Assembly: GCA_003167365.1 (NCBI GenBank)
Contig: PMTM01000006.1
Span: 268,391-332,390 of the forward strand
Reading direction: 5' to 3'
DNA: 64,000 nucleotides
Source: Spartobacteria bacterium
GTDB taxonomy: Bacteria; Verrucomicrobiota; Verrucomicrobiia; Chthoniobacterales; UBA10450
This document shows, in pieces, positions 21,626 through 41,457 of this stretch. Position 1 is the stretch's first letter; each line of letters begins with the position of its first letter. A program made the translations under genes and the position numbers. The notes under the pieces are model-generated. The model was not told where the DNA came from. It saw nothing but the letters and a program-made list of their open reading frames with translations, and made no database searches.

Positions 21626-21681
21626 ATAGCTTTAATGAAGTGGTTGTTAAACGCTCAAACCTATCCGCGCTCTCCTATTTA

Positions 21682-21756
21682 CCGCCATTGGACGATTGTA
21701 GGATTTTGCCATGCCACTTAAGAACTGATGGGTGCTCCCTCTTTTGAGATAGAGGG
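21682..21756 (-). promoter_or_regulatory. Leader element copy A, upstream of the sigma-factor operon
   Basis: On the minus strand a CCCTCT...AGAGGG hairpin (with inner CTC-AAAA-GAG) ends in GAGGGA. Exactly 28 bases follow (21735 down to 21708), then AAAATCC at 21707-21701. It starts about 130 bases and ends about 57 bases before the sigma-factor ATG. It also covers the run-on 3' end of the broken dehydrogenase gene. Confidence 0.75.
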
Positions 21757-21757
21757 A

Positions 21758-22648
21758 AGGGGGGCTGCCGGACTGGCTCTTGACCAGTATCTCCCATCGT
21801 GAATTCGTAGATGGCCGAAAAATCCTCGGTGTCGTGTCCTCCGCGCATCGCCAGCCGATAGACTTCTTTGGTTACGTTCGTTAGGGGCATGGCCACGCCG
21901 GCTTCGTACGCGCTCACCGCGGTGAGATGCATGTCTTTCTGCATCCAGCGCAATGGAAATTCGGCTTCGTAGTTGCCACTCTCGATCTTCTCCCGCTTCG
22001 AAGCGAGAAACGGCGCAACCGCAGGCGTGCCAAGCAATGAATCGAACAACAGCTTTGACGAGAGCCCGAGCCCTTTGCCCAAAGCCATCGCTTCGGCGAA
22101 CGCGGCCATTCCGGTGCCTAACAAAAGATTGATCACCATTTTCATGGAAGTCCCGCTGCCATGTCCGCCGGTATGAACAATTTTACTGCCCAAGTACAGC
22201 AGGAGCGGGCGAATCCTTTCCAAGTCTTCCGTATCGGCGCCCACCCAAAAGATGAGCTTCACCACGGCGGCCACGGGAGCCGAGCCGGTCACAGGCGCAT
22301 CGACAAAACGAATCTGCCGTGCTGCGGCTGCCGTCGCCATTTTCTTGGAGAAAGATGGATTGACCGAACTGCAATCGACCCAAAGCGCCCTCGGCTTGAG
22401 ATGATTTAGAAAGCCGTTGCGACCCAGCGCCGCCTGCTCCACTGCATCCGGATGCGCCAGCATTGTGAACAAGACTCCACCTGCTCGGCAACTTTTGCTG
22501 GCGATTCCGTGAATGTTGCGCCGTTGTCGATCAACGGCTTCGCTTTCGCGCGCGTTCGATTGAATACGACCAAGTCGTAGCCGTGCTTTTGCAGGTTCGC
22601 CGCCATACGGCTCCCCATTATGCCTAAGCCAATGAATCCAATTTTCAT
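21758..22648 (-). pseudogene. 3-hydroxyisobutyrate dehydrogenase-like NAD(P) oxidoreductase, frameshifted
   Basis: From ATG 22648 (with an AAAGGA site upstream) the frame encodes a Rossmann start, MKIGFIGLGIMGSRMAANL. At about 22473-22477 one base is missing relative to the intact paralogue at 38832, and the rest (FTMLAHPDAVEQAAL to IYEFTMGDTGQ) continues in another frame. The paralogue reads GTGGACGTGTTG where this copy reads GTGGAGTCTTG. The sequences are otherwise very similar through the whole length. The normal stop is also lost, and the second frame runs on to 21675 through leader element A. It was probably co-transcribed with the aldo/keto reductase upstream. Confidence 0.85.
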
Positions 22649-22660
22649 TTCCGCTTCCTT

Positions 22661-23659
22661 TCAGGCTGCGGTGACCAACTCCGGTTCGTGGGTGTTTCTT
22701 CCTTCGATTTCTGCAATTTCCTCGTCGGCGAGACGAAGATCGACAGCGCCAACATTGCCTTCGACCTGCTTCGCGTTGCGTGCGCCGACGATGGCTCCGG
22801 TAACGGCAGGATTTCGCAGCGCCCAGGCGATCGCGACTTGACCCGGAGGACGTCCCTGCCGTTTACCGACTTCTCGCAGGCGTTCAACGAGCGCGAGATT
22901 TTTCGAAAGCTTCGGCTCCTGAAACTCGACATCGCGGCTCCGCCAATCGCTGTCCGGAAGACCTGCCGCGCGTTCGCGCGTCATCGCGCCGGTCAACAAG
23001 CCGGATGCCATCGGCGAATAGACGATAACGCCCAGTCCGTTAGATCGACAATAAGGCAGAATCTCTTGTTCGACTTCGCGACGAACTAACGAATACGGAG
23101 GCTGCAGTGAAGTGATCGGCGCGATCGCTTGCGCTCGATGTATCTCTTCAAGGTTGAAGTTAGAGACGCCGATCCAGCGAACCTTTCCCTCTTTCTGGAG
23201 CTGAGCCATTGCGCCCCAGCCTTCTTCCAAGTCCTCGGTCGACCAGTGGATTTGATAAAGGTCGATGACATCGACATTCAGCCGGCGGAGACTGTCCTCG
23301 CACTCGCGACGGATGGAGTCTGCGTTCAAAGAGCGATGAACGTATCCCTGTTCGTCCCAGCGCAGGCCACATTTGGTGAAAACGTAAGGCCGAGGGCCCG
23401 ACCAGGTGCGCAACGCTAACGCGACGACTTCCTCGGAGTGGCCCATTCCGTAAACGGCCGCCGCGTCGATCCAGTTAATGCCAAGCTCGAGCGCGCGATG
23501 AATCGCGGCGATAGACGCTTTGTCGTCCTGCTCGCCCCAACCAAATTCCCAGCCCGATCCCCCGATGGCCCATGCCCCAAAGCCCAGGGGCGTGATAAAC
23601 AAGTCTGAGTTGCCGAGCTGCCTCGTGCTCATATCAATCTTTTTAGGTTTCGTTTTCAT
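22661..23659 (-). CDS. Aldo/keto reductase
   Basis: 332 residues from ATG 23659, chosen because AAAGGA lies 9 bases upstream; an ATG at 23695 lacks this. It is a TIM-barrel NADPH oxidoreductase with the active-site Asp/Tyr segment WIDAAAVYGMGHSEEVVALAL, the Lys in VFTKCGLRW and the His in DLYQIHWS. It likely reduces aldehydes or ketones; the substrate is not identifiable. It lies 47 bases after the Gly-rich protein gene and 12 before the broken dehydrogenase, so it belongs to the operon led by element B. Confidence 0.9.
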   Translation of the reverse strand: MKTKPKKIDMSTRQLGNSDLFITPLGFGAWAIGGSGWEFGWGEQDDKASIAAIHRALELGINWIDAAAVYGMGHSEEVVALALRTWSGPRPYVFTKCGLRWDEQGYVHRSLNADSIRRECEDSLRRLNVDVIDLYQIHWSTEDLEEGWGAMAQLQKEGKVRWIGVSNFNLEEIHRAQAIAPITSLQPPYSLVRREVEQEILPYCRSNGLGVIVYSPMASGLLTGAMTRERAAGLPDSDWRSRDVEFQEPKLSKNLALVERLREVGKRQGRPPGQVAIAWALRNPAVTGAIVGARNAKQVEGNVGAVDLRLADEEIAEIEGRNTHEPELVTAA

Positions 23660-23706
23660 GTTCTGAGTTCCTTTGGCTTTCGTATGTTGAAACAACTCCT
23701 CGTTCC

Positions 23707-24555
23707 TTAGCTCGTCGCTACTTGCTGGATTCCCAGTGACTGCAGTGTCGCGGTAGTCAGAGTTCCGGTTACGGCGAGGTGCTGGTCGGTTTGATAGCGC
23801 GCGAGTGCATCACGTGTATCCCGCCCGAAGAGCCCATCGATTGCGCCGTGGTAATAACTCAACCTTGCTAGATCGGTCTGAACGGCAGTGACGTTAGGGT
23901 CCGGGCTTTGATCGCCAGAACTGGACACGCCGGCGTTGTAATACTCTGGTTCAACGTCCGCGTAATAACCTGGGTAGTAGTCGTACGGGTAATAGTCGTA
24001 TGCATAGTAAGGGTAGTAATCCCAAGGATAGTACCCCGCATCCAAGCCGATCCAGGCATCCCCGTCGTAACACCACCAGTGGCCGTTCCGGTAATGGGCG
24101 CTGCGGCGATCCCAACCACGCTGCCAATTATTGTCATGGCGGGCAAAGATGTGACCGCTTGCGCTTATGGGCCGTTGATCCGTTGGCTTTGCAACCGGCG
24201 GGCGCGATGTTTGTCCGGTGCGATTGCCAGTTGCGATACGACGATCTTGCTGCCGATTAAGTGCTGTTGTTGCGCGCGCAGACCGAGCTATCGACCAGCT
24301 GCCTGATCTGGCGTAGACAGGACGCCCATAGACTGGACGCGCCCCAAAAGAGAAGCGCGCTCCGGGGCTCATGTGCGCCGCGCCGCCAAAACCACCACCA
24401 CGGAAACCTCCTCCACCGCCAAAACCACCGCCACCGAAGCCGCCCCCACCATGGAAGCCGCCGCCGCCGCCTCCACCGCCGCCGCGGCCAGCTGCGGCGT
24501 GAGCGAGGGCTATCGATGTGATGCCGACTAGACTCAATAATGTTAATTTTTTCAT
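23707..24555 (-). CDS. Exported Gly-rich protein with C-terminal peptidoglycan-binding domain
   Basis: 282 residues from ATG 24555, with a signal peptide (MKKLTLLSLVGITSIALAHA). A run of Gly/Phe-rich repeats follows (residues ~25-60), then a Tyr/Pro/Asp-rich middle with WDYYPYYAYDYYPY-type repeats. The C-terminal ~60 residues resemble a PG_binding_1 domain (VTAVQTDLARLSYYHGAIDGLFGRDTRDALARYQ). It is probably attached to the cell wall or periplasmic peptidoglycan. It is the first gene of an operon with the aldo/keto reductase, under element B. TTG 24561 is an alternative start. Confidence 0.8.
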   Translation of the reverse strand: MKKLTLLSLVGITSIALAHAAAGRGGGGGGGGGFHGGGGFGGGGFGGGGGFRGGGFGGAAHMSPGARFSFGARPVYGRPVYARSGSWSIARSARATTALNRQQDRRIATGNRTGQTSRPPVAKPTDQRPISASGHIFARHDNNWQRGWDRRSAHYRNGHWWCYDGDAWIGLDAGYYPWDYYPYYAYDYYPYDYYPGYYADVEPEYYNAGVSSSGDQSPDPNVTAVQTDLARLSYYHGAIDGLFGRDTRDALARYQTDQHLAVTGTLTTATLQSLGIQQVATS

Positions 24556-24581
24556 ACCCAAAGATCGTTACTCTTCGGTTC

Positions 24582-24655
24582 ACTGCTATTGCGCGTCTGC
24601 GGGATTTTGCGGTCTCACGTAAGAGTTGCCGCTCGCTCCCTCCTTCGAGTGAGAG
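24582..24655 (-). promoter_or_regulatory. Leader element copy B, upstream of the Gly-rich protein operon
   Basis: On the minus strand, a CTC-GAAG-GAG hairpin and GAGGGA are followed by 28 bases (24636-24609). These contain a second possible hairpin, CTC-TTACGT-GAG. AAAATCC is at 24608-24602, followed by CGCGCAATAGCAG. The end lies about 30 bases before the start codon. Confidence 0.8.
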
Positions 24656-24718
24656 TCCCGGGGCGCTGCAGCAATCAATCGATAACACCAAGTTGTTTTC
24701 GCGTTCACGACGTGAACT

Positions 24719-24946
24719 TCAAAAGAGCGGCCAGAACATTAGGATCAACAGGCCTAAGGCCAGCAGCGAGACGAGGACTGCGTCCCGTGAACTCGCACGC
24801 GGTGGCGCGGAAAGATGGACAGGTTGATTTGTGCGGTGCCCAAACACCAGGCCGAGACTGTCGGGATGGTTATCAAAGATCAGAATGCGCCGTATTTTCT
24901 TGCGTGTGCCAGTTGTTGACCCCAAGCGTTTTACCTGCTTGACCAC
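24719..24946 (-). CDS. Small membrane-anchored protein
   Basis: 75 residues from GTG 24946. I chose this start because a strong GAGGAGG site lies 7 bases upstream; a TTG-initiated frame to 25042 has none. The protein has a basic N-terminus (VKQVKRLGSTTGTRKKIRR), a segment resembling the first strand of a receiver domain (ILIFDNHPDSLGLVFG), and one C-terminal transmembrane helix (AVLVSLLALGLLILMFWPLF). I do not recognise a family. It has its own leader element (C), so it is probably expressed with the stress set. Confidence 0.6.
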   Translation of the reverse strand: MVKQVKRLGSTTGTRKKIRRILIFDNHPDSLGLVFGHRTNQPVHLSAPPRASSRDAVLVSLLALGLLILMFWPLF

Positions 24947-25101
24947 GAAAATCCTCCTCGAGCGGACGCCGGGCTGTCCGTTTGTAGAAGCTAGGCGAGC
25001 CAGATCCTGAAGATCGGTGATTGGCCTAACGAAGCGCGCCAAGGACGGCAGGGCCCGATAGCGAGAGTCTTTCCTTTTTATAAGCTCACGCTATGACAGA
25101 G

Positions 25102-25181
25102 CAGCACATCGCCGCGACGGCGCATGCGTGGGATTTTATGATCTTACGCGAGAGGCGATCACAACCACCTCTTTTGGGAGA
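25102..25181 (-). promoter_or_regulatory. Leader element copy C, upstream of the small membrane protein
   Basis: On the minus strand, CTCTCCCAAAAGAGG leads into the hairpin end GAGGTG, a slight variant of GAGGGA. Then come 28 bases (25165-25138) and AAAATCC at 25137-25131, followed by CACGCATGCGCCGTCGCGGC, nearly identical to the tail of copy E. The rest of the 245-bp gap holds nothing else I can identify. Confidence 0.75.
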
Positions 25182-25191
25182 GCGCCGTTCG

Positions 25192-26409
25192 CTAAATGGT
25201 TGCTTTCGCGGCAACGCGCGGAGGTCGCACCAGGATCGGCAGCAGAATTGAAACCGCCATGACTCCAGCGATGACGTGAAGGGCGCCGCGATATGTACCA
25301 GCCGTCTCGCGCATATGTGCGATGAACAGGGGACCGAACGCGCTGGCAAATCCCCACGCGGTCAGCATTAAACCGTAGATGGGACCGACGTTCTTTGGAC
25401 CAAAATAATCAGCCGCAAACGCGGGCATGGTGCCAAACCCGCCGCCATAGCACATCAACACGATGAACGTAATGATCGTCATCAACGAGACGGTTGCGAT
25501 GCTCGGAAGAAACCAAAAAAGCAGAACCTGAAAAATGAACATGACGGCGAAAGTTGCTCGCCTTGTAATCACGTCGGAAACCCATGCCCAGAATACTCGA
25601 CCAACTGCATTGCCGATGCTGGCCAGTCCCACCATGCCCGCCGCGACGATTGCACTGGCTCCGGTTAATTCCTGAAAAATCGGAGCCTCCTGCGAGATGA
25701 TGGAAATGCCTGCGCAAGTATTTAGAAACAGCAGCAGCCAAAGGGCGTACCATTGCCAGGTCTTGAGCGCCTCAGTCAGCGTGAAATCGTGGCTCGCGCG
25801 GTGCGAAGTTTCGGTTGCCGTCGGCACCCAACCCTCAAGCTTCCAACCCTCGGGCGGGTTCTGCATAAAGGCGCCGGAAATTATTGTCACGACGAGATAC
25901 GCGATGCCCAAGTATGCGAATGTGCTCAAGACGCCAACGCTCTGAATGAGCCGGGTCGCCACCGGCGCGGTGATGAGCGCGCCCGCTCCAAACCCGCCCA
26001 CCGCGATGCCGGTGATGAGTCCCCGTCGATCCGGAAACCACTTCACCAGCACGGCCACCGGCACGATATATCCAAAACCGAGGCCGATTCCGCCGATCAA
26101 GCCGTAACTAAGATATAACCACGACAGGCTATGCGAGAAGCTGGCGAGGAAAACTCCCAGCCCATAGAGCACGCCGCCGGTCAGCGCGACAATGCGCGGT
26201 CCTTTGCGGTTCAGCCACAGACCACCGAAGAACGCGGCAACCCCCAGGACAAAAATGCTGATCGTAAAAGTCAGCGTTATTTCTGAAATGCTCCAGCCGA
26301 ATTGCTTTGCGAGGGGCGCGCGGAAAACGCTCCAGGCGTAGACCGCGCCGAGCGCGATCTGGAAGAACACTCCCGCGATGGCGATTACCCAGCGATTATT
26401 TGTTCGCAT
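25192..26409 (-). CDS. MFS transporter of the oxalate/formate antiporter (OFA) family
   Basis: 405 residues with 12 transmembrane helices. The N-terminus, NNRWVIAIAGVFFQIALGAVYAWSVF, is typical of the OFA family that includes OxlT, and GYIVPVAVLVKWFPDRRGLITGIAVGGFGAGA is the central MFS signature. The neighbourhood (an oxalate-decarboxylase-like cupin directly upstream and formate dehydrogenase nearby) supports oxalate import or oxalate/formate exchange. Family members also carry other anions such as pyruvate, so the substrate is not proven. It lies 24 bases after the cupin and shares its operon. Confidence 0.85.
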   Translation of the reverse strand: MRTNNRWVIAIAGVFFQIALGAVYAWSVFRAPLAKQFGWSISEITLTFTISIFVLGVAAFFGGLWLNRKGPRIVALTGGVLYGLGVFLASFSHSLSWLYLSYGLIGGIGLGFGYIVPVAVLVKWFPDRRGLITGIAVGGFGAGALITAPVATRLIQSVGVLSTFAYLGIAYLVVTIISGAFMQNPPEGWKLEGWVPTATETSHRASHDFTLTEALKTWQWYALWLLLFLNTCAGISIISQEAPIFQELTGASAIVAAGMVGLASIGNAVGRVFWAWVSDVITRRATFAVMFIFQVLLFWFLPSIATVSLMTIITFIVLMCYGGGFGTMPAFAADYFGPKNVGPIYGLMLTAWGFASAFGPLFIAHMRETAGTYRGALHVIAGVMAVSILLPILVRPPRVAAKATI

Positions 26410-26418
26410 AAAGTCCTC

Positions 26419-27188
26419 CTACGATAGCGGCGTTATGGAAACGCCATTCTTTGGTATCGTATCGAAGGTGGCTTTGTCGATGTGTAAGTGCGCCATGACA
26501 AGTTCCGGCGGGGTGTGAGCCAGCCACTCCGAGAATGAAAGGTCCTGAAAGCGATCGGCCTTGAATATCTCGAGGAACACCAAAACGGTGTCGCCCGTGT
26601 TCTCGACGTAGTGCAGCAAGCTCTTCTGCACGTATCCGACTCTCCCTCCTGAAAGTCCATTGTCCGAGCTTTGTTGCCGGTCGCCACCACAGTCATTCGT
26701 CCCTTGCCGGCGATAAAATACTGCCACTCGTCCGCGTTCGGGTGCCAGTGCAGTTCCCGCATTCCGTCCGGATGAACGGTGACCATCGCCATCGCTGTGG
26801 TTGAGACTTTGAAATTGCTCGAATCGACGATGCGCACCTCGCCCCCTTTCGTCTGCTTCGTCGGCGGCATTTCCATCGTGCGAAAAGCAAAATCCTTTGG
26901 TGATTTTCCAAGCGCTCCGGCCGCTGCTTTCTGATCGGCCTCTAGTCCTCCTGGAACATCCGCTTGGAGAATGAATAGCTCTTCTTTGGGCACATTCTTA
27001 AACGCTTGTTCGCCAACCCCGAAATTTTTTGACAACACCCCGGGCGGTAGATGCGCCACCGCGTCGCTCAACAACACCGTCTCTGACTCGGAAAACCCAC
27101 CGTCGTCGAACACGAGCATGAATTCGCAGCCGTCGGGATTGAGACCTTGGATCTTTCCGATGAAACTTCGACGAGTGAATGTGCTCAT
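26419..27188 (-). pseudogene. Oxalate-decarboxylase-like cupin, frameshifted
   Basis: From ATG 27188, with a GGAGATATT ribosome-binding site, the frame encodes a bicupin-like protein with a metal-binding HWHPNADEW (H-x-H-x4-E type). After TMDFQEG the frame becomes nonsense. The true continuation, VGYVQKSLLHYVENTGDTVLVFLEIF to NGVSITPLS, lies in another frame ending at 26419. One missing base near 26640 explains it. Oxalate decarboxylase makes formate and CO2 from oxalate, which fits the OFA transporter next to it. The gene is either a recent pseudogene or an assembly error; all other parts look conserved. Confidence 0.85.
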
Positions 27189-27203
27189 AATATCTCCTGA
27201 AGG

Positions 27204-27231
27204 TTTTGAGTTTGGGTTTCGGGTTTGAAGT
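27204..27231. repeat. Degenerate heptamer array upstream of the cupin gene
   Basis: Four 7-bp units, TTTTGAG, TTTGGGT, TTCGGGT and TTGAAGT, fill most of the 51-bp gap between the small membrane protein gene and the cupin gene. Confidence 0.6.
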
Positions 27232-27239
27232 CGTTCATG

Positions 27240-27506
27240 TCAGGCGCGCCAAACTTGGATGAGGATGAAGACCAGCACCGTCGTCAATCCGCCCCAAACA
27301 AGTAAGATCTCTTCCTCACGATTGTGTCGAACCTCCGGGACATCGTTCCGGACGTTCGGATCTCGATCGAAAAATTGGTGTCGCCTGCGCCAGATGAAAA
27401 CTCCGGCAAACAAAAAGATGATCACCGCGATGGTGAATGCGGCGCGCAGCGCCGGAACGCCAGCCTGTTCAATCACCGCTATCACAAGGGAACCGTTCGT
27501 TTGCAT
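27240..27506 (-). CDS. Small two-helix membrane protein
   Basis: 88 residues with two predicted transmembrane helices (LRAAFTIAVIIFLFAGVFIW and EILLVWGGLTTVLVFILIQVW) joined by a polar loop with RRRHQFFDRDPNVRNDVPEVRHNREE. No family is recognised. It is the first gene of an operon with the oxalate-decarboxylase-like cupin and the OFA transporter, and leader element D lies about 50 bases upstream. A helper role for transport or for a membrane enzyme is possible but unproven. Confidence 0.65.
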   Translation of the reverse strand: MQTNGSLVIAVIEQAGVPALRAAFTIAVIIFLFAGVFIWRRRHQFFDRDPNVRNDVPEVRHNREEEILLVWGGLTTVLVFILIQVWRA

Positions 27507-27536
27507 GCGAAAACGAGTACAGATGCTTTCAATCGG

Positions 27537-27606
27537 TTGCTACGACGCGTTCGTAGGATTTTCCGTTGGCTCTGAAGGAGGGATTGCGACTCCCTCTTTA
27601 GGGGTA
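27537..27606 (-). promoter_or_regulatory. Leader element copy D, upstream of the oxalate operon
   Basis: On the minus strand, CCC-CTAAAGA-GGG leads into GAGGGA, then 28 bases (27590-27563) with an inner CTC-CTTCA-GAG hairpin, then AAAATCC at 27562-27556. It ends about 30 bases before the ATG at 27506. Confidence 0.8.
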
Positions 27607-27645
27607 AACACAGAGATCGAGAGCCTCGCGATCTTGGTGTCGTCG

Positions 27646-28632
27646 CTAGTAGTGTTCCGCAGCGAAGACAGATTCCGGATCGGAGCCGGAAACTTTGCCC
27701 ACCGCAATCCAGCCGAAGCGACTAACCAGCGCGCCGATCAAGAATGAAATCGCCGCGAATGGAACGAGGGAGAACAACCGCAGAACAAGAGCAAGCGGAC
27801 CGGTCAGGATCTCGCCGATGCGAATTAGCCAACCCGAAGCGTGTTCGTGGATCGCACGATCGGCGGCTCCATGTTTGTCGACGCTAAGCCAGATCAAAAG
27901 CGCCGACTCGACTGCGGCGGCGTAGTACCCGAGTGCGTTGAGCGCCGCGATGCGATGGCCGAGCAATTCCAACAATGCGGCCGCAGATCCTAATCCGGCC
28001 GTGCCAAAATGAATCGGCAAAAGCACGCGATGCAAAAACCACGCCGGGATTGCAGTCGCGCCGATCAACACGCCGGTGTAGGTGGCGAGCAACATTCCGA
28101 AAATTGCCGACCCGAAGATGAGAAAGCTGGCGGCAATGCGAAGCAACTGATCCATCGGCCCGGTGAAAACTTGAAGGGCATGAAGTTCGAGCGCGATCAA
28201 ACCGGGAACGACGCACGTAATAAACATCACCAGGATCCAAACGCCCATCGACATGGCCGATTGAGGTTTGAAAACTCGCAGCATGTTGATGAAAAGGCGC
28301 GGGCGGCCGAGGTCCATAATCAGCAAAATCGGTGAGAGGATTGAGCCGGCCGCGGCCAGCCACATGGCGGCGCGCGCAAGATCGACATGGTGAAATGTGA
28401 ACGCTGCGCTCGCGATCACCGCCGACATTCCGCCGGCGCCGCCGATGAAAAAATAGAACGGGATTTCCCACGTCCAAACCGGCGGTTTCACCACGGGCTG
28501 ACCGTAGTAACCCGGCTGGCGCGGAATCGGTCCGCCGGCGACATCGACGCCCTTGCCCGGAACGACACCGTCTTTCCACGCCTGCTCGCGCAACTCTTCG
28601 AGTCGCTTCTCGGATGGTGAATTGCTCGTCAT
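27646..28632 (-). CDS. Formate dehydrogenase membrane subunit, NrfD/PsrC family
   Basis: 328 residues from ATG 28632, which overlaps the stop of the iron-sulfur subunit gene as ATGA; the longer frame to 28701 lies within that gene. It has about eight transmembrane helices and typical NrfD features (WTWEIPFYFFIGGAGGMSAVIA, SILSPILLIMDLGRPRLFINMLRVFKPQSAMSMGVWIL). NrfD-type subunits pass electrons between a cofactor-bearing partner and the quinone pool. Unlike FdnI-type subunits they lack haem ligands. It is the last gene of the fdh operon. Confidence 0.9.
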   Translation of the reverse strand: MTSNSPSEKRLEELREQAWKDGVVPGKGVDVAGGPIPRQPGYYGQPVVKPPVWTWEIPFYFFIGGAGGMSAVIASAAFTFHHVDLARAAMWLAAAGSILSPILLIMDLGRPRLFINMLRVFKPQSAMSMGVWILVMFITCVVPGLIALELHALQVFTGPMDQLLRIAASFLIFGSAIFGMLLATYTGVLIGATAIPAWFLHRVLLPIHFGTAGLGSAAALLELLGHRIAALNALGYYAAAVESALLIWLSVDKHGAADRAIHEHASGWLIRIGEILTGPLALVLRLFSLVPFAAISFLIGALVSRFGWIAVGKVSGSDPESVFAAEHY

Positions 28633-32764: not shown

Positions 32765-32858
32765 ATTGTTCAATCGCTTAAGCAGTCGTGTTCGTTGTTA
32801 TCTTTTTCATGCCTGATGGTAAAGCGCAAATGATTCGCGGCTCGCCGATTCTTTCCGT

Positions 32859-33749: not shown

Positions 33750-33772
33750 ATATGTAAGTGCGATTTCCTCGA

Positions 33773-34306
33773 CTAAGAGTTGCGCCTTGTTTCCGATAAG
33801 AACCAGGTGCGACGCTCGGTCTCATCGATCCAAACTTCGATCAGACTCGCTGTGGCAACGTCACGATGCTCGTCACAGACGTTGTGCGTCTCACGAAGAC
33901 GCGCGGCTAGCGTTTTATTGTCGTCGGCCAACTCGGCGATCATGTCCGGTGGATCGACATAATCGGCGTCGTTATCGAGCACGCGCTGAAGACGCGAGAT
34001 ATGGCCGATCGACTTGATCGTAAGTCCTCCAATCTTTCGAATTCGCTCCGCGATTGGATCTGTCATGGCGAAAAGCTGGTCGCCGTGTTCGTCGAGAAGT
34101 AAGTGGTAATCACGGAAGTGCGGACCGCTCATGTGCCAGTGGAAATTTTTGGCTTTCAGGTAGAGCGCGAACACATCCGCCAGAATAGCGTTCATGGCGC
34201 CAGCAATGTCTTTGGTGGCCGAACGCGTGAGATCGGTCGGTGTTGCCAGTGGAGCCTCGCGTCTCTGCCGAAGCTCTGAAATTTTTGTCGAACCATTTCT
34301 ACGCAT
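33773..34306 (-). CDS. dps: Dps, DNA-protecting ferritin-like protein
   Basis: 177 residues from ATG 34306, preceded by an AAGGAAAA site. The ferroxidase region KNFHWHMSGPHFRDYHLLLDEHGDQLF has the expected ligands His56, His68, Asp72 and Asp76. The N-terminal tail is basic (MRRNGSTKISELRQRRE), as in Dps proteins that bind DNA. Dps stores iron using peroxide and protects DNA in starvation or oxidative stress. A full leader element (E) lies upstream, which anchors the stress interpretation of that element. Confidence 0.94.
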   Translation of the reverse strand: MRRNGSTKISELRQRREAPLATPTDLTRSATKDIAGAMNAILADVFALYLKAKNFHWHMSGPHFRDYHLLLDEHGDQLFAMTDPIAERIRKIGGLTIKSIGHISRLQRVLDNDADYVDPPDMIAELADDNKTLAARLRETHNVCDEHRDVATASLIEVWIDETERRTWFLSETRRNS

Positions 34307-34403
34307 ATACTTTTTCCTTTGTTTGAGTTTGATTTTGTTTTGTCTGAACCGCTGTAAACCGGGATCGCTCTGGCATATTCCGCAAAGCTATCGATCGCAG
34401 AGT

Positions 34404-34478
34404 GCTGCCGCGACGGCGCAAGCGTGGGGTTTTGAAATGCCACCGCCGAGGGGATGCTCGTTCCCTCTTTGGGGGTAG
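34404..34478 (-). promoter_or_regulatory. Leader element copy E, upstream of dps
   Basis: On the minus strand, CCCCCAAAGAGGGA is followed by 28 bases (34461-34434) containing CCCCTCGGCGGTGG. Then comes AAAACCC at 34433-34427, a one-base variant of AAAATCC, and CACGCTTGCGCCGTCGCGGC. About 100 bases separate it from the dps ATG. Confidence 0.8.
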
Positions 34479-34487
34479 ACTTGGTAG

Positions 34488-34531
34488 GGACATCGCGCTG
34501 CGATGTCCGCGGACGCCGCAGCGCGGCGTCC
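34488..34531. repeat. Double REP-like palindrome between leader E and the regulator gene
   Basis: Two perfect 9-bp stems stand side by side: GGACATCGC / GCGATGTCC with loop GCT, then two bases, then GGACGCCGC / GCGGCGTCC with loop AGC. They lie just past the end of the response-regulator gene (34569) and could also act as a bidirectional barrier. Confidence 0.75.
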
Positions 34532-34568
34532 TTACCCATTGTTGACAATTTCGACTAAAGCTCCGGTG

Positions 34569-35282
34569 TTACAACTGAATCAAGCCGCGGCGCGTAGCAT
34601 TCGCCACCGCTTCGGTCCGGCTGATGACATTCATCTTGGCGAAGATGCTTTTCACATGCGACTTCACAGTGCCTTCACTAATAAAGAGGGCCGACCCGAT
34701 CTCTTTGTTGCTTTTGCCTTGAGCCATCAGCTTGAGTACGTCGATCTCGCGTTCGCTCAACGTTTCGCCGCTGACGCGTCGCGCGAGTTTGGCGGCGAGG
34801 TGCATCGGCACGCAGGTTTCGCCCGCGTGCACCCGGCGAATGCAATCCATCAATGCTTCGCGCGGTGCGTCCTTGAGCAGGTAACCTTTGGCGCCGGCTT
34901 GAATGGCGCGGTAAATATCTTCATCTCCGTCGAACGTCGTTAACACGATGATCCGCGCTTTCTGGTCGTTGCCACGAATTTCTTTAAGCGCACCGACGCC
35001 GTCCAGCTCGGGCATGCGCAAATCCAGCAGCGTTACATCGGGGCGATGTTGCTTCCAAAGATCGACGGCTTCGCGTCCATTGCCCGCTTCGCCGATAACG
35101 GTCATGTCCGCTTTCCGAGTGATGAGTGAAACCAGGCCTTCGCGGACAACGCTGTGATCGTCGGCGATCAGCACCGTTATCCGAGATTTTTTTGCCTCTC
35201 CACCTTTCGGCGCTTTCTTCGCAGATTTTGGTTTCTTTGCAGACTTCTTGGAATTCACCGCTGTTTTCTTTTTGGATGTCAT
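34569..35282 (-). CDS. NarL/FixJ-family response regulator
   Basis: 237 residues from ATG 35282, which overlaps the kinase stop as ATGA. It has a Lys-rich N-terminal tail of about 33 residues (KKK, KKSAKKPKSAKKAPK), then a receiver domain (IADDHSVVREGL, phospho-acceptor Asp87 in LLDLRMPELDG, Thr in VLTTFD, Lys in LLKDAP) and a LuxR-type helix-turn-helix (SEREIDVLKLMAQGKSNKEIGSALFISEGTVKSHVKSIFAKM). It is the partner of the upstream kinase. The histone-like tail is unusual and may add nonspecific DNA binding. Confidence 0.94.
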   Translation of the reverse strand: MTSKKKTAVNSKKSAKKPKSAKKAPKGGEAKKSRITVLIADDHSVVREGLVSLITRKADMTVIGEAGNGREAVDLWKQHRPDVTLLDLRMPELDGVGALKEIRGNDQKARIIVLTTFDGDEDIYRAIQAGAKGYLLKDAPREALMDCIRRVHAGETCVPMHLAAKLARRVSGETLSEREIDVLKLMAQGKSNKEIGSALFISEGTVKSHVKSIFAKMNVISRTEAVANATRRGLIQL

Positions 35283-37282
35283 GACATCGATTCTCCGTTG
35301 CACTGCAGTAGCACGGTGATCTTCGTGCCCTTACCACGTGTGCTGGTGATTTCCAATTCGCCGCCCATTTGCTCGACCCGCTCGCGCATTCCAGTTAGAC
35401 CCACGCCGTCATGTCGATCTTTGACTTTGAATCCGTCGCCGTCGTCACGCAATTCCAGACGAAGTTCTTTCGCCTTGTAGGTTAGCCGCGTTTCAAAGTT
35501 GCGCGCGTGCGCGTACTTGAGCGTGTTGGTCAGAGCCTCCTGGCCGATGCGGAGAAGATTTACCTGCCAGGGCTGAGGAAGCTCCGGAATTTTGCCTTTC
35601 GCTTCAAACGTTGCGTGAAGCGCTGTTCCAACGGTCGTGTTCTTAATAGTACCTTTGAGCGCCTCCCAGAAATTGTGTTCTTGCAAGGCTTGGGGACGCA
35701 ACGCGTGCACGGAGCGGCGCGCTTCGCTCAGACTGCGCCGAGCTAGCTCGCCGGCGCGGTGCAAATGATTGTCCGCTTCCTTACGGGAACCCAGGGAAAT
35801 TGCATCTTCGGCTGCTTCCAACTGGACAATTACGCCGGTAAAACCTTGCGCCAGCGTGTCGTGAATGTCCCGCGCCATTCGATTTCGTTCTTCGAAGACT
35901 GCAGCTCGCTGCCCTTGCTCGGCAAACTCATTGAGTTGAAGCGCAAGCATGACTTGATGCGCGAGCGCCTGAGTCAATTCGATTTCTTCAGGCCGATACG
36001 AACCGCCATAGAAATGGCGAATGCCAACAAAACCTCTGACCTCTCCACCTATGAACATCGGAACCGCGAGAAACCTTTTTGTCCCTCTTCGCTTCAAGTA
36101 ATCGGCCCAATCGCCACTGACTCGGGGATCAGTCTCGATGTCATCGCAAACCACGGGAGCTCCTGTGAAAATCAGTTCCTGCATGACCGGGTTCTGTTTC
36201 CACATCAATGGGTCCTTGATGAACGGATGCTCCGGGTCCGGCCCGGGCAAGTTTCCGTCTTCCCATGCTGAGCGTAAAAGAAGCGAGTCAGTGGATTTAT
36301 CCCATAGCCACAAAACGACGCTTTGCGCGTTCAACAAACGAGCAATTGTGCTGAGCATCTGTCCAATAAATTTTTCTGGATCAGGCGCGGTGGCCAGCAC
36401 ATCCAGACTCTGGGTCATCGCCTCCACCTGTCCGCGCGCCACTTGTTCGGACGCGCGCAGTGCTTCATTGCTTCGGCTGAGGTCGGCCGTTCGTTCTTTG
36501 ACTTTGCCTTCCAGCCCATCTCGCGCTTCCCGCAGCTCGTATTCGCTCTGGCGCAGAGAGGCCTCGGCTTGTTTGTGGTCGGTGATATCAGTGCAGGTCC
36601 CAAACCATTTCTCGATCTTACCTTCCTCGTCCCGGATCGGCACGCCACGCGTCTTGAACCAACCGTAAACACCATCCTTCCGTCGGACTCGGTACTCCAC
36701 ATCGTAAGGCGCGTGCCCCGAGACCGAATCCGTCCAGAATCTTCGGGTTGGCTCGTGGTCGTCGGGATGCAGCAACTTCATCCACTGCCAGCCAAGCAGA
36801 TCGATTTCGGGCACACCGGTGTAGTCTGTCCACTGCGTGCTGAAGTAGTCGCACGCGCCATCCGACGTGGCTCCCCAGACGAGTTGTGGCAGCGCTTCGG
36901 TCAATCCGCGCCAGCGTTGCTCACTGTCGCGCAGGCGATCCTCGGCGCGTTTGCGGCTGGTGCTCCATGAGCTAATAACCAACGCTGAGAGAAGAAATGC
37001 GACCGTGGTAGGGATATCCTGAACACTAAATTGAAATGCGAAGAACGGTTCGGTGAAGAAAAAGTTGATCGACAAAGTCGATAGCAAGACTGCCAGCAGC
37101 CCAGGTCCCGTGCCGCCAAACCACGTGCTCAGCAGAACGGCCGGGAAAAAGAGGGAGGTTCGTACGCCAAAACTTTCCAGCGGGAACGTAATGGCAGTGG
37201 AGATCGCGACTGATAGACCGGACAGACCGTACCGCCAAACGGCCGGCGCAACTCGTCCCAAACCAAGATCTGACTTCGACAT
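35279..37282 (-). CDS. Membrane sensor histidine kinase with PAS and GAF domains
   Basis: 667 residues. The N-terminal ~110 form about four transmembrane helices resembling the DUF4118 sensor region. A PAS domain follows (WRGLTEALPQLVWGATSDGACDYFS to GTCTDITDHKQAE, ~125-250), then a coiled coil, a GAF domain (~290-440), a HisKA_3 dimerisation domain with phospho-acceptor His474 (ARDIHDTLAQGFTG), and an HATPase (LTNTLKYAHA, DDGDGF, GVGLTGMRERV). It pairs with the NarL-type regulator by a coupled start. The signal is unknown. The leader-like fragment F upstream points the other way. Confidence 0.94.
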   Translation of the reverse strand: MSKSDLGLGRVAPAVWRYGLSGLSVAISTAITFPLESFGVRTSLFFPAVLLSTWFGGTGPGLLAVLLSTLSINFFFTEPFFAFQFSVQDIPTTVAFLLSALVISSWSTSRKRAEDRLRDSEQRWRGLTEALPQLVWGATSDGACDYFSTQWTDYTGVPEIDLLGWQWMKLLHPDDHEPTRRFWTDSVSGHAPYDVEYRVRRKDGVYGWFKTRGVPIRDEEGKIEKWFGTCTDITDHKQAEASLRQSEYELREARDGLEGKVKERTADLSRSNEALRASEQVARGQVEAMTQSLDVLATAPDPEKFIGQMLSTIARLLNAQSVVLWLWDKSTDSLLLRSAWEDGNLPGPDPEHPFIKDPLMWKQNPVMQELIFTGAPVVCDDIETDPRVSGDWADYLKRRGTKRFLAVPMFIGGEVRGFVGIRHFYGGSYRPEEIELTQALAHQVMLALQLNEFAEQGQRAAVFEERNRMARDIHDTLAQGFTGVIVQLEAAEDAISLGSRKEADNHLHRAGELARRSLSEARRSVHALRPQALQEHNFWEALKGTIKNTTVGTALHATFEAKGKIPELPQPWQVNLLRIGQEALTNTLKYAHARNFETRLTYKAKELRLELRDDGDGFKVKDRHDGVGLTGMRERVEQMGGELEITSTRGKGTKITVLLQCNGESMS

Positions 37283-37363
37283 TCTCTTGACTCAAAAAGT
37301 CTACGTGAGGCGATCAAGCCCCTGAAAGTTTAACGAACCAACGCTCGACACGCCACTCTTCTT

Positions 37364-37410
37364 TCCTCCCTCGAAAGAGGCACTGACAAATCTTACCACT
37401 GCTTGGTGGT
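37364..37410 (+). promoter_or_regulatory. Degenerate leader element copy F
   Basis: CCCTCGAAAGAGG forms the hairpin with a GAAA tetraloop, but only 5 bases separate GAGGCA from AAATCTTACC instead of 28. It looks like an internally deleted copy. It reads toward the small + strand frame at 37455 and lies upstream of the divergent kinase gene. Confidence 0.45.
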
Positions 37411-37454
37411 GACGGTCGGCATGGCCGCTAACATTGGAGACATACGAAATCACA

Positions 37455-37619
37455 ATGAAAACCAAACAACGTGAAAACAATTTCAGCAGCTCACTTCGCA
37501 AGATCTTTCGACGACACGCACGCAGGCACGACCCCATGCTCGTGCTCAACATGTCGACCTTTAATTTCACCGACGGATGGAGCCGCACGTTTTCAAAACG
37601 GGAATACGCGCGGTCCTAA
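37455..37619 (+). CDS. Hypothetical small basic protein
   Basis: 54 residues, MKTKQRENNFSSSLRKIFRR and so on, rich in Arg/Lys/Ser. A TTG at 37434 could start a 61-residue form. No strong ribosome-binding site is visible and no family is recognised. It is listed because it follows leader fragment F in the sense direction and precedes the SRPBCC gene on the same strand. It may not be a gene, in which case the ~370 bp between the kinase and the SRPBCC gene is noncoding. Confidence 0.3.
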   Translation: MKTKQRENNFSSSLRKIFRRHARRHDPMLVLNMSTFNFTDGWSRTFSKREYARS

Positions 37620-37657
37620 GCCTGACGAACCGAGGTTAAATAAGGGGACCGCTGGCA

Positions 37658-38077
37658 ATGAACGCTGCGAAAGGATCAATCGTGGTCAAGGCGCCCGTGG
37701 CCGACGTCTACGAACGCTGGCTGGCATTTGAAGATTATCCAAAGTTCATCACCGCGATCAAACGGGTGCGGAAATTGGATGCAAACCATTTTGTCGCATC
37801 GCTCGCTTTCAACGGAAAGCAATATGACGCGATGCTTGAAATTATGCTGCGGGTCTTTGAGCGAAGGCTGGCGTGGCGAACTATTTCCAACGGTCATGCG
37901 CCCGATCACCTCGCGGCTGGAGTCGTTTCGTTCACGTCGCTTTCCGACCAGAACACGTGCGTGACCCTGAAGCTGACCTCAAGCTTCGGCGGCGCCGTCT
38001 CGCGTCGAGTCGACGGGTATCTGGACAATTTCAAACGGTTAATCGAGGGACCGGCGGGATCGAAGGCGAACGCCTGA
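37658..38077 (+). CDS. SRPBCC-fold (polyketide cyclase/START-like) protein
   Basis: 139 residues matching the SRPBCC helix-grip fold: SIVVKAPVADVYERWLAFEDYPKFITAIKRVRKLD is the typical opening of coenzyme-Q-binding/cyclase-like family members, and the last helix is RRVDGYLDNFKRLIEG. Such proteins bind hydrophobic ligands in a deep pocket; the ligand is unknown. There is no signal peptide, so it is cytoplasmic. It is the first well-supported gene of the + strand stress cluster. Confidence 0.8.
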   Translation: MNAAKGSIVVKAPVADVYERWLAFEDYPKFITAIKRVRKLDANHFVASLAFNGKQYDAMLEIMLRVFERRLAWRTISNGHAPDHLAAGVVSFTSLSDQNTCVTLKLTSSFGGAVSRRVDGYLDNFKRLIEGPAGSKANA

Positions 38078-38093
38078 TGGCTCGAACGACGGC

Positions 38094-38174
38094 GAACTCT
38101 ACCTCGAATGGGGGAGCTCGCATCACCCCGGCGGAGGCGACTGAAAATCCCACTCATGCGCAATGGCTGCAGCC
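38094..38174 (+). promoter_or_regulatory. Leader element copy G, upstream of the CPTC-protein operon
   Basis: ACCTCGAATGGGGGA has a G-U pair replacing a Watson-Crick pair in the stem. It is followed by 28 bases (38116-38143) with CACCCCGGCGG, then AAAATCC at 38144-38150 and CACTCATGCGCAATGGC. Similarity to copy H continues downstream to the ribosome-binding site (TGAAAAC..ACTGCT in both). Confidence 0.8.
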
Positions 38175-38240
38175 TGATTGCACGCGATACCTTGACGTGT
38201 GAAAACGAACTGCTTCGAACCCTTCCCGGAGGAAATTACC

Positions 38241-38456
38241 ATGTCTCAACAAATTCATTCTTACAGCGAGCTTCAGCAGCAGATCCACCAAGACCTGCGC
38301 CGCCAACATCCGGACTGGGTTGAGCCCAACGGCAACTGTCCCACCTGCGACTCCTACGAGTTGCGTTTAGCCGAACTGATCGGACTCAGTCGGTCCTCGA
38401 ACGCCATACCAACGTTCGAATCATCATCCGCGATGAGCCAGGCCGCAGCGGCTTGA
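38241..38456 (+). CDS. Small protein with a CPTC motif
   Basis: 71 residues from ATG 38241, chosen because of a strong GGAGGAAATTACC site; an ATG-less longer frame begins at 38199. It has a helical N-terminus (SQQIHSYSELQQQIHQDLRRQHPDWVEPNG), a single NCPTCDSYE motif, and a polar Ser/Ala tail. One CxxC alone could bind a metal as a dimer or act in redox chemistry. I do not recognise a family. It is the first gene of an operon with the thioredoxin-like gene. Confidence 0.65.
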   Translation: MSQQIHSYSELQQQIHQDLRRQHPDWVEPNGNCPTCDSYELRLAELIGLSRSSNAIPTFESSSAMSQAAAA

Positions 38457-38487
38457 TAATAGTGAATATCAAACACGAGGCTGAAAC

Positions 38488-38826
38488 ATGAAAACGACCA
38501 TTGAGATCAATGAAGCGAACTTCGAAACCGAAGTTTTGAAATCCAGTCAACCGGTGCTGGTCGAGTTTGCCACGGGATGGAGCCTTCCTTCGATGATGAT
38601 GAACGGAGCGATGGACGAAATTGCCGCCGAGTTTGTCGATTGTCTGAAGGTCGCCCGCGTTAAACTCGATCGCAGCCCGAACCTCGGGTTGTGGTACGGG
38701 ATTCGATGCCTTCCGGCGATATTGTATTTCAGCGACGGCGAAGTGCGCATTGGGATTTTTGGAACCACCAGCAAGGACGCAATTCTTTCTCAGTTGAGAC
38801 CAGTTATGGACTCAGGGCGCATATAA
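38488..38826 (+). CDS. Thioredoxin-fold protein lacking the active-site cysteines
   Basis: 112 residues that align to thioredoxin along the whole length: PVLVEFATGWSLPSMMMNGAMDEIAAEF where thioredoxin has the WCGPC active site, then VARVKLDRSPNLGLWYGIRCLPAILYFSDGEV with the cis-Pro region (RCLPAI). Both active-site cysteines are replaced by Ser (Ser32 and Ser35). It therefore cannot do dithiol exchange in the usual way. A binding, chaperone or scaffold role is inferred. A ribosome-binding site is weakly visible (GAGGCTGAAACATG). It lies 31 bases after the CPTC gene. Confidence 0.85.
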   Translation: MKTTIEINEANFETEVLKSSQPVLVEFATGWSLPSMMMNGAMDEIAAEFVDCLKVARVKLDRSPNLGLWYGIRCLPAILYFSDGEVRIGIFGTTSKDAILSQLRPVMDSGRI

Positions 38827-38831
38827 TTAGA

Positions 38832-39722
38832 ATGAAAATTGGATTCATTGGTTTAGGCATCATGGGTAGCCGCATGGCGGCGAACCTGCAAAAGCGCGGC
38901 TACTCCCTGGTCGTATTCAATCGAACGCGCGGCAAAGCGCAGCCGTTGCTCGATCAAGGTGCGACATTCGCTGATTCGCCGCCAAAACTGGCGGAGCAGG
39001 TGGACGTGTTGTTCACAATGCTGGCTCATCCCGATGCAGTCGAACAAGCAGCGTTGGGCACGAATGGATTTTTGAGTCATCTCAAGTCGAATGCGCTTTG
39101 GGTGGATTGCAGCTCGGTTAATCCTTCGTTCTCGAAGAAGATGGCGGCGGCGGCCGCGGCCGGCCGGATCCGTTTTGTCGACGCGCCCGTGACCGGTTCC
39201 GCGCCGGTGGCCGCCGATGGGAAACTCATTTTTTGGGTAGGCGGTGATGCCGCGGACGTGGAAGCAATTCGCCCGTTGTTGCTGTGCATGGGAAACAAAA
39301 TTGTTCATGTCGGCGGACATGGGATGGGCACTTCCATGAAAATGGTGGTCAATCTTTTGTTAGGCACAGGAATGGCCGCGTTCGCCGAAGCAATGGAGCT
39401 TGGCCAGGGGCTGGGGCTTTCGCAGAAGATGCTGTTTGATTCATTGCTCAGTACGCCGACGGTCGCGCCGTTTCTTGCGTCCAAGCGGGAGAAAATCGAG
39501 AGCGGAAATTACGAAGCTGAATTTCCGTTGCGCTGGATGCAGAAGGATATGCATCTCGCTTCGGTTAGTGCCTACGAAGCCGGCGTGGCCTTGCCCGTAG
39601 CGAACGTAACCAAAGAAATCTATCGGCTGGCAATGCGCGGCGGACACGAGAGTAAGGATTTTTCGGCCATCTACGAATTCGCAATGGGCGACGACGGAAA
39701 GGAGCGGGGAACTCAACCATGA
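38832..39722 (+). CDS. 3-hydroxyisobutyrate dehydrogenase-like NAD(P) oxidoreductase
   Basis: 296 residues from ATG 38832, directly after the thioredoxin-like gene. It has the Rossmann motif GFIGLGIMGSRMAANL, the substrate-binding segment FVDAPVTGSAPVAADGKL and the catalytic Lys region GTSMKMVVNLLLGT. The family includes 3-hydroxyisobutyrate, tartronate semialdehyde and succinic/glyoxylate reductases. It is the intact near-twin of the frameshifted copy at 21758-22648, so one arose by duplication within this region. The stop overlaps the next gene as ATGA. Confidence 0.9.
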   Translation: MKIGFIGLGIMGSRMAANLQKRGYSLVVFNRTRGKAQPLLDQGATFADSPPKLAEQVDVLFTMLAHPDAVEQAALGTNGFLSHLKSNALWVDCSSVNPSFSKKMAAAAAAGRIRFVDAPVTGSAPVAADGKLIFWVGGDAADVEAIRPLLLCMGNKIVHVGGHGMGTSMKMVVNLLLGTGMAAFAEAMELGQGLGLSQKMLFDSLLSTPTVAPFLASKREKIESGNYEAEFPLRWMQKDMHLASVSAYEAGVALPVANVTKEIYRLAMRGGHESKDFSAIYEFAMGDDGKERGTQP

Positions 39723-40651
39723 TAAAGACAATCTCCTATCTCGGTCTCGGGACCATGGGCAGCGGCATGGCCTCGAACCTTCTCAAAGCCGGCTACGAAC
39801 TTACCGTCTGGAACCGGAGCGCTGAAAAATGCGAGCCGTTCGCCAGGAAAGGCGCGCGCGCCGCCGATACTCCAGCCGACGCCGTCCGCGATGTGGATCT
39901 TATCATGTATAGCTTGAGTAACGACCAAGCGGTCGAGGAAGTTGTCTTTGGCGCGAAAGGAATTCTAAGTGGAATCAACGAAGGCCAGATCGCGATCGAT
40001 ATGAGCACGGTCCTTCCCGCGACGAGTTTGCGAGAAGAGGAAGCTTATGCAAAAGACGGTGTCGATTTTCTCGACGCGCCTGTCTTTGGTAGCAAACGAG
40101 AATCCGCGGACGCCAAGCTATGGATTATGGCCGCGGGCAACCAGGCCATCTTTGAAAAAGTGAAACCCATCTTGGAGCATTTGGGGCAAACCGTTCACTA
40201 CTTTGGCAAGAACGGAAACGCCGCAGCCATGAAGCTGGTGGGAAACCTCATCGTCGCGTTGGAAATGGAAGCGCTCGCGGAAGGCCTGGTCCTCGCGCAA
40301 AAGGCCGGCCTTGATCTGAATACCGTGATGGAAGTCGTAAAAGTCGCCGACTTCCGCTCACCGTTGCTCGTCAGCAATGGTCAGAATATTTTGAAACGCG
40401 ATTTTTCGGCCAGCTTCGCCCTCAAGCTCATGCTCAAGGATGCGGGCCTTATTGAAAAATTTGGTGACAGTCTGAAGTCACCCATTCCCGCACTGCGCGT
40501 TGTCGAAAAAAACCTCGCAACGGCCGTTGCCCTTGGCTTCGGAAATGAAAATGCCTCTGCCTTAATCAAGGCGCTCGAAAAAGAAGCCGGTGTCGAAGTG
40601 AAAGGCGTTCCCACTCGACAGAACTTGCAAATAAGTCGGAAGCAATCATGA
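39719..40651 (+). CDS. NAD-dependent beta-hydroxyacid dehydrogenase family protein
   Basis: 310 residues of the same superfamily as the gene before it but clearly divergent: SYLGLGTMGSGMASNLLKAGYELTVWNRS at the N-terminus, FLDAPVFGSKRESADAKLW for substrate binding, and the catalytic Lys in NAAAMKLVGNLIVALEMEALAEG. It is coupled at both ends (ATGA overlaps with neighbours on each side). Two sister dehydrogenases in tandem suggest sequential or heterologous use on small aldehydes or hydroxyacids such as glyoxylate derivatives; the substrate is unproven. Confidence 0.88.
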   Translation: MIKTISYLGLGTMGSGMASNLLKAGYELTVWNRSAEKCEPFARKGARAADTPADAVRDVDLIMYSLSNDQAVEEVVFGAKGILSGINEGQIAIDMSTVLPATSLREEEAYAKDGVDFLDAPVFGSKRESADAKLWIMAAGNQAIFEKVKPILEHLGQTVHYFGKNGNAAAMKLVGNLIVALEMEALAEGLVLAQKAGLDLNTVMEVVKVADFRSPLLVSNGQNILKRDFSASFALKLMLKDAGLIEKFGDSLKSPIPALRVVEKNLATAVALGFGNENASALIKALEKEAGVEVKGVPTRQNLQISRKQS

Positions 40652-41259
40652 AAAAACAACGAGCGAAGATAAAAACTTACCTATTCATTGCAGGAGGACT
40701 CATCTCTATGGCTGGAGTTCAAACACCAATTGTCGCGGCGGAGGAAGACAGCGGGGCCTATGTGGCTTCTCAAAAGGTCGAGAAAGGCAAAGCTCCTGGG
40801 ATGCGAGTTCAGCTTTTGAGTGAAAATCACGGGCGCAAGGAATATGCGGTGATTTTCAGCAAAGGAGACGAAGCATTCTCAGGCTTGAATGAGTTTGCCG
40901 AGAAATATCGGGTGACGAGCGCTCATTTCACGGCAATTGGAGCTTTGCGTGGAGCGACGCTCGCTTGGTTCTCCCCCGAGCGGAAAATGTACAAGAGGAT
41001 CCCCGTAGAAGGCCAGCTCGAGGTTGCTTCAATGATCGGCGACATCGCGCTATTCAATGGAAAGCCCGTTGTTCATACCCATATGGTAATCGGCCTTCCT
41101 GACGGAAGCGCCAGGGCAGGACATGTTCTCGAAGCACACGTTTGGCCTACGCTCGAGGTGATGGTCACGGTCGAACCGAAGGCCATGCGCAAGCGCCTCG
41201 ATCCAGAAACTGGATTATCGCTGATTGATCCAAGTTTGGTGAACGAGGAACAGAAATAA
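40648..41259 (+). CDS. Exported PPC/DUF296-domain protein
   Basis: 203 residues. The N-terminus is a signal peptide (KKQRAKIKTYLFIAGGLISMAG, likely cleavage near VAAEED). The rest is a PPC (DUF296) domain: SAHFTAIGALRGATLAWFSPE, then PVVHTHMVIGLPDGSARAGHVLEAHVWPTLEVMV, with a His cluster (His143, His145, His159) placed as in metal-binding members. Most bacterial PPC proteins are cytoplasmic, so an exported one is less usual. It ends the operon that starts at 38241. The function is unknown. Confidence 0.8.
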   Translation: MKKQRAKIKTYLFIAGGLISMAGVQTPIVAAEEDSGAYVASQKVEKGKAPGMRVQLLSENHGRKEYAVIFSKGDEAFSGLNEFAEKYRVTSAHFTAIGALRGATLAWFSPERKMYKRIPVEGQLEVASMIGDIALFNGKPVVHTHMVIGLPDGSARAGHVLEAHVWPTLEVMVTVEPKAMRKRLDPETGLSLIDPSLVNEEQK

Positions 41260-41310
41260 TATTTGTTTAAGGCCAGTCACGTGAGCTTGGCCCTGAGTAG
41301 CTAATCTCGA

Positions 41311-41391
41311 AACTCTCCCTCGAATGAGGGATTACTGATCACCTCGGCGGCGGGAATAGAAAATCCCACCCTTGCGCAATAGCGCTTGTTA
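41311..41391 (+). promoter_or_regulatory. Leader element copy H, upstream of the RND pump operon
   Basis: This is the cleanest copy: CCCTC-GAAT-GAGGG forms a perfect 5-bp stem and tetraloop. A is followed by 28 bases (41332-41359), AAAATCC (41360-41366), and a third small hairpin GCGC-AATA-GCGC at about 41375-41386. The pump ATG is about 90 bases on, preceded by GGAGG. Confidence 0.85.
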
Positions 41392-41457
41392 ATCGCGCAG
41401 CGAAATTCAGTGGATGAAAACAGACTGCTCTAGCCTTAGCCAGATCGGAGGGACGTT

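Follow-up and report, generated by a model that had tools for sequence, protein, structure and literature searches.

We consider it likely that a short element repeated in the genome of a Spartobacteria bacterium is an activator operator with sites for three protein dimers, fused to a promoter and bound by a NarL/FixJ-type response regulator that is encoded in the same island. The element was studied in a stretch of 64,000 nucleotides (assembly GCA_003167365.1, contig PMTM01000006.1, positions 268,391 to 332,390; hereafter the window) and in related genomes. The motif, its modularity, its spacing to the promoter, its conservation across the family and its co-occurrence with the regulator gene are direct observations. 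Element positions are numbered from the first G of GAGGGA. The copies in the window, each a candidate operator, are as follows:

21681..21752, minus strand: copy A, three modules, before the island sigma factor gene; -10-like CGGATAGGTTTG from 21667
24582..24653, minus strand: copy B, three modules, before the gene of a Gly-rich protein with a peptidoglycan-binding domain, whose start at 24555 is position 88
25111..25182, minus strand: copy C, three modules, before the small-protein gene sm78; -10-like GTCATAGCGTGA from 25097
27536..27607, minus strand: copy D, three modules, before a small membrane protein gene (start 27506) heading a cupin-MFS operon
34407..34478, minus strand: copy E, three modules, before dps; -10-like TCGATAGCTTTG from 34394
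37366..37413, plus strand: copy F, two modules, the middle 24-bp module being absent; -10-like CCGCTAACATTG from 37425; followed by a small open reading frame (ORF) from 37455 and then an SRPBCC gene
38099..38170, plus strand: copy G, three modules; -10-like GCGATACCTTGA from 38184; GTG start at 38199
41315..41386, plus strand: copy H, three modules, before the RND pump gene; -10-like motif from 41400; possible leader ORF from 41414

The pattern GAGGGA-N28-AAAAYCC had five exact matches in the window against 0.01 expected, and the looser GRGG-N30-AAAAYCCYRC recovered all seven full copies, which are confined to one 20-kb island, with no further match in the 3.13-Mb genome. A position weight matrix (PWM) of the family gave scores of 71-82 to these copies and -12 to the next best position in the window. 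Pattern matches and PWM thus bear out the seven places reported in a preliminary description of this DNA, and the constant spacing, the sense orientation and the gene neighbours are also as reported there. The conserved unit, which begins some 10 bases ahead of GAGG and extends to 61 bases past it, is longer than previously outlined. Beyond this unit, a -10 box and a start codon follow at a fixed distance.

The element is built of three 24-bp modules, each with a 16-bp palindrome, TnnCnC-N4-GnGnnA, centred at positions -1.5, 22.5 and 46.5. When the column profile was compared with itself over all lags, lag 24 alone was positive; one column permutation in 2000 attained its value, as did four block permutations in 2000. 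The key palindrome letters were matched on average 5.7, 4.6 and 4.9 times out of six at shifts of 0, 24 and 48, and at most 3.3 out of six at any other shift. The constant "28-base spacer" of the preliminary description is explained by this construction. Natural deletions support the module as a unit. In a deletion scan, profile columns before AAAATCC were removed in lengths of 20-28 bp, and 24 further sites were recovered with a deletion of exactly 24 bp. Removal of 20-23 bp gave no site, removal of 25 or 26 bp gave one each (the 26-bp one overlaps a 24-bp site), and removal of 27-28 bp again gave no site. Copy F, which had been called degenerate, is not so, because exactly one module is absent: module 1 is joined directly to module 3, making a two-module version short by exactly 24 bp. 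It is the sole zero-mismatch two-module site in its genome, and the two-module form recurs in two further loci (L039 and L040) at the equivalent position, flanked by the kinase gene on one side and the SRPBCC gene on the other. One module can drop out without shifting the -35 and -10 positions relative to the proximal module. The small ORF downstream of copy F (37455-37619, plus strand, about 54 amino acids, beginning MKTKQRENNFSSSLRKIFRR) is conserved in the same two loci.

The promoter statistics were obtained with 98 non-redundant three-module sites and 18 two-module sites. Of the 98 sites, 43 have TAnnnT at positions 77-79, against a background of 0.015 per site, and 69 have an ATG or GTG codon at positions 87-93 (background 0.12). 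Both features lay 24 bp further upstream in the two-module sites (9/18 and 12/18, respectively). After refinement, the -10 box reads approximately CGATAnnnTTGA and starts at 74-76 in 80/98 sites. Start codons at that distance were found on the sense side of 79 of 114 sites, compared with 20 on the mirrored side, and no comparable enrichment of TAnnnT was observed ahead of 44 long ORFs of the window. The sequence T55-x-G-C is compatible with a -35, with an 18-bp spacer to the -10 box. The start codon mostly lies about six bases past this box, which implies that transcripts from these promoters would be nearly leaderless. With a predicted start near position 90, the palindromes would be centred near -92, -68 and -44; it is the sequence that places the proximal palindrome at about -44 and the start itself, with T55-x-G-C as the predicted -35. 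Leaderless TANNNT promoters are known from mycobacteria (Mycobacterium tuberculosis), where the -10 is often preceded by CGN and the start codon stands immediately downstream (PMC3898074). The element is similar in having a TAnnnT -10 a few bases ahead of the start codon; it differs in that its -10 is locked at a fixed distance to an operator array, and its starts are predicted from sequence.

Two other readings of the promoter were considered and rejected. The AAAAT at 34-39 matches TATAAT in 4/6 letters in 100 of 115 copies, but it was discarded as a -10 box on two grounds: the start codon and the CGATAnnnT box lie at a fixed distance further downstream, and such a -10 would put the core promoter underneath palindromes 2 and 3. 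For a sigma-54 promoter, defined by GG at -24 and GC at -12 with 10 bp between them, GTGGCA is present, but the -12 reads TC, not GC, in 46-48 of 49 copies. Two observations concern individual starts. The gene sm78 after copy C (window position about 25080, minus strand) has ATA where its relatives have ATG at position 90, and begins IKRKDSRYRAL compared with MKRENSRFRAM, indicating a lost or non-standard start. A short ORF, MKTDCSSLSQIGGTLCGSFV (41414-41476, plus strand), begins where transcription from copy H is predicted to start and runs out of frame into the start of the RND gene; it is a possible leader peptide.

Of the 83 genomes of the family, which comprises soil Verrucomicrobia, 51 carry the gapless element, with up to 32 copies per genome. 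No genome in the rest of the order carried it (48 of 213 genomes matched, all from this same family), and in a phylum-wide sample, full matches were restricted to the element's own genome, with one marginal partial match near the threshold elsewhere. Orthologues of the genes next to element copies recur in other genera. Elements may also stand back to back, divergent or overlapping, as at L178 (1620, minus, and 1701, plus) and L040 (18800, plus, and 18819, minus).

The proposed binder and its partner are encoded within the island, in adjoining genes:

34569..35303, minus strand: NarL/FixJ-type response regulator (receiver and GerE helix-turn-helix), proposed to bind the operator on the basis of Pfam domains, similarity to VraR and co-occurrence
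35279..37282, minus strand: histidine kinase (DUF4118, PAS, GAF, HisKA_3, HATPase_c), the putative partner of the regulator

Pfam assigned to the regulator a Response_reg domain (1.7e-29) and a C-terminal GerE domain (2.7e-22), and its closest solved relative by sequence is VraR of Staphylococcus (PDB 5hev and others; E=2e-43). Orthologues of the regulator were found in 28 of the 51 family genomes bearing the element and in none of the other 32 (p=2.6e-8); among genomes at least 90% complete, the figures were 15/17 with the element versus 0/13 without it (p=1.8e-6). VraR itself has a different regulon, organism and kinase. The named records of the genomes with an orthologue are soil and palsa metagenome-assembled genomes (MAGs) labelled Verrucomicrobia or Spartobacteria. 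Elements were located near 26 of 27 loci whose regulator is at least 75% identical, commonly beginning less than 200 bases after the regulator gene, and the full PWM found none at 53 loci with homologues at most 61% identical. Near distant homologues outside the family, no three- or two-module 24-bp arrays stood clearly above shuffled sequence; one such locus, L166, has a single 21-bp direct repeat, which is of a different kind. Collectively, these data suggest that the island response regulator probably binds the operator.

This arrangement resembles known promoters of NarL-type regulators, and a multi-site operator for such a protein is of an already known kind. ComA promoters of Bacillus subtilis contain an inverted repeat of two hexamers separated by 4 nt, with several recognition elements upstream of the RNA polymerase site (PMC4797271), and share with the element the 6-4-6 unit and the presence of several sites per promoter. 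ComA recognizes TTGCGG hexamers, and a direct repeat spaced by 5 nt forms its second site (PMC4797271), whereas the element has the hexamer TnnCnC, up to three inverted repeats and an exact 24-bp period. A ComA operator proper was thus rejected, since there are no TTGCGG hexamers and the modules are inverted repeats with the consensus TnnCnC. In the DevR/DosR dormancy promoters of Mycobacterium tuberculosis, a NarL-subfamily regulator occupies closely packed sites, commonly with overlap of the proximal site and the -35, in a regulon of the stress or dormancy type; the number of predicted sites varies among DevR targets (one, two or more), while the array of the element is rigid, with three and sometimes two (PMC3029386). 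The multi-site layout of these promoters was found in the element, as three (or two) palindromes of about 16 bp per promoter with a 24-bp period. The DevR motif differs in sequence from that of the element. By analogy, the element is predicted to work like ComA and DevR promoters, in both binding and activation.

The identity of the binder, the sign of regulation (activating, not repressing), the site of transcription start and the signal are inferences. In the mechanism proposed, each 16-bp palindrome would bind one dimer of the island response regulator, giving three dimers centred at about -92, -68 and -44, of which the proximal one would abut or overlap the -35 (T55-x-G-C). The CGATAnnnT -10 would occupy positions 75-84, and the first transcribed base would belong to the start codon or lie very close to it, near position 90. 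The neighbouring histidine kinase would phosphorylate the regulator, and the phosphorylated dimers would occupy the array cooperatively, recruiting RNA polymerase from the position beside the -35. The island would then be switched on together, including the second sigma factor, Dps, thioredoxin, dehydrogenases, the cupin-MFS (oxalate-type) genes and the RND pump.

Several observations weigh against this mechanism. The AAAATCC block is more strongly conserved than the palindrome letters require. Because 24 bp is not an integral multiple of the helical repeat, the dimers would be spread over more than one face of the DNA. The -10 matches are weak at copies D and H. Moreover, no regulator orthologue was detected in 23 element-bearing genomes, and 12 of them, searched again at a loose threshold, yielded only paralogues 29-38% identical. 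Most of the 23 are fragmentary MAGs; one of them (G029) is 95% complete and has eight copies of the element.

These orthologue-less genomes favor the alternative that the same operator-promoter is bound by some other dimeric regulator, possibly encoded elsewhere in the genome, and the motif by itself names no protein. We regard this as unlikely, since the element and the gene of the island regulator strongly co-occur and are physically linked; moreover, among the island proteins scanned, only this regulator and the sigma factor have DNA-binding domains, and the 6-4-6 inverted-repeat geometry suits a GerE-domain regulator, as in ComA (PMC4797271). It is quite improbable that the dimers instead act as a repressor, holding the genes off until stress: the proximal palindrome touches the predicted -35 region, as a repressor site might, but the array is placed ahead of the core promoter, not over the -10 and start, and a proximal site at about -44 with further sites upstream is the usual activator layout for regulators of this class (DevR, PMC3029386; ComA, PMC4797271).

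The other DNA-binding protein among the island proteins scanned is the sigma factor, and the remaining annotated genes are listed with it:

20777..21625, minus strand: group-2-like sigma-70 factor under copy A, a second paralogue, the core copy being elsewhere in the genome
20331..20768, minus strand: receiver-only response regulator downstream of the sigma gene
33773..34306, minus strand: Dps/ferritin-like protein, putative target of copy E
41458..44739, plus strand: RND pump, putative target of copy H

The possibility that the element is mainly a long, unusual promoter recognized by this alternative sigma factor, with the palindromes incidental, draws on the position of the sigma gene under copy A and on the second sigma paralogue that accompanies the element in many genomes. 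We consider it very improbable. A sigma factor about 80% identical was found in nearly all family genomes (82/83 with a match), including those that lack the element, and this makes it a less likely reader; as the specific reader of the element, the island sigma was rejected on this ground. In addition, the three 24-bp modules extend far past a core promoter, and the loss of a module leaves the -35 and -10 unmoved relative to the proximal module. The core sigma-70 paralogue (G000:C1:794505-795341) is 81% identical to the island sigma, and most genomes of the family have a counterpart of it; the copy in the island has the appearance of a recruited duplicate. Between the aldo/keto reductase gene and copy A, a 6-phosphogluconate/hydroxyisobutyrate dehydrogenase-like gene (21801-22648, minus strand) is split by a frameshift when compared with the intact orthologue in L038, and is either a pseudogene or the result of a sequencing error.

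The preliminary description had left two options, a structured RNA in the 5' untranslated region or a long operator tying a stress regulon together. The first did not hold. RNAalifold predicted no pair in 44 aligned copies, and the CTC-NAAN-GAG hairpin had 81.5% of cells paired, compared with 81.1% after shuffling, with two inner pairs often broken; covariation did not convincingly exceed that of the shuffles, and the claim that the stem arms change together was not upheld in the larger alignment. A minority of the hairpin measures, involving further pair types, rose above the shuffles (3 of 500 shuffles), an excess that can also be explained by a palindromic DNA site or by relatedness. Rfam gave no match for the element, and the sole match in the window at the gathering score was a tRNA. 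In modules 2 and 3, the central bases (T/T and A/C) are conserved mismatches that cannot pair as RNA and would be harmless to a protein contacting the outer palindrome letters. The length of the element is practically fixed except for the 24-bp losses, unlike that of RNA loops, and, being upstream of the predicted -10 box and start codon, the element should not be transcribed. A riboswitch or thermosensor is therefore barely credible, even though CTC-N4-GAG can be drawn as a hairpin and the copies lie upstream of genes and in sense. The evidence points to DNA, not RNA, as the form in which the repeated element acts, and the operator option is strongly favored by the rigid palindromic modules, the fixed promoter, the sense orientation throughout the family and the co-occurrence with the island response regulator.

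In this window, the copies stand ahead of the genes for the sigma factor, the Gly-rich protein with a peptidoglycan-binding domain, several small proteins, Dps, the SRPBCC protein and the RND pump, and ahead of the cupin-MFS and thioredoxin-dehydrogenase operons, a set whose predicted functions fit a stress or dormancy regulon. A limited literature search returned no description of the operator sequence, of strict 24-bp modularity with two-module variants, of the fixed fusion to a nearly leaderless promoter, or of the regulon. We tentatively suggest, as a possibility somewhat short of even, that this is an undescribed, strictly modular operator-promoter, with three and sometimes two 24-bp response-regulator modules locked to a nearly leaderless CGATAnnnT promoter, that defines a patchy stress or dormancy regulon confined to a single family of soil Verrucomicrobia.

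On this reading, the 24-bp period would imply that the regulator dimers form a fixed helical stack on DNA instead of being placed independently. The strict modularity and the natural variants with two modules offer a direct way to test cooperative binding by a NarL-type regulator. Because nearly leaderless starts are tied to the element at a fixed distance, it also predicts the correct start codons of many small proteins in these genomes. For uncultured soil Verrucomicrobia, the element would offer a readable regulon code, in which one motif flags stress genes, their promoter, the predicted start and a probable two-component system.

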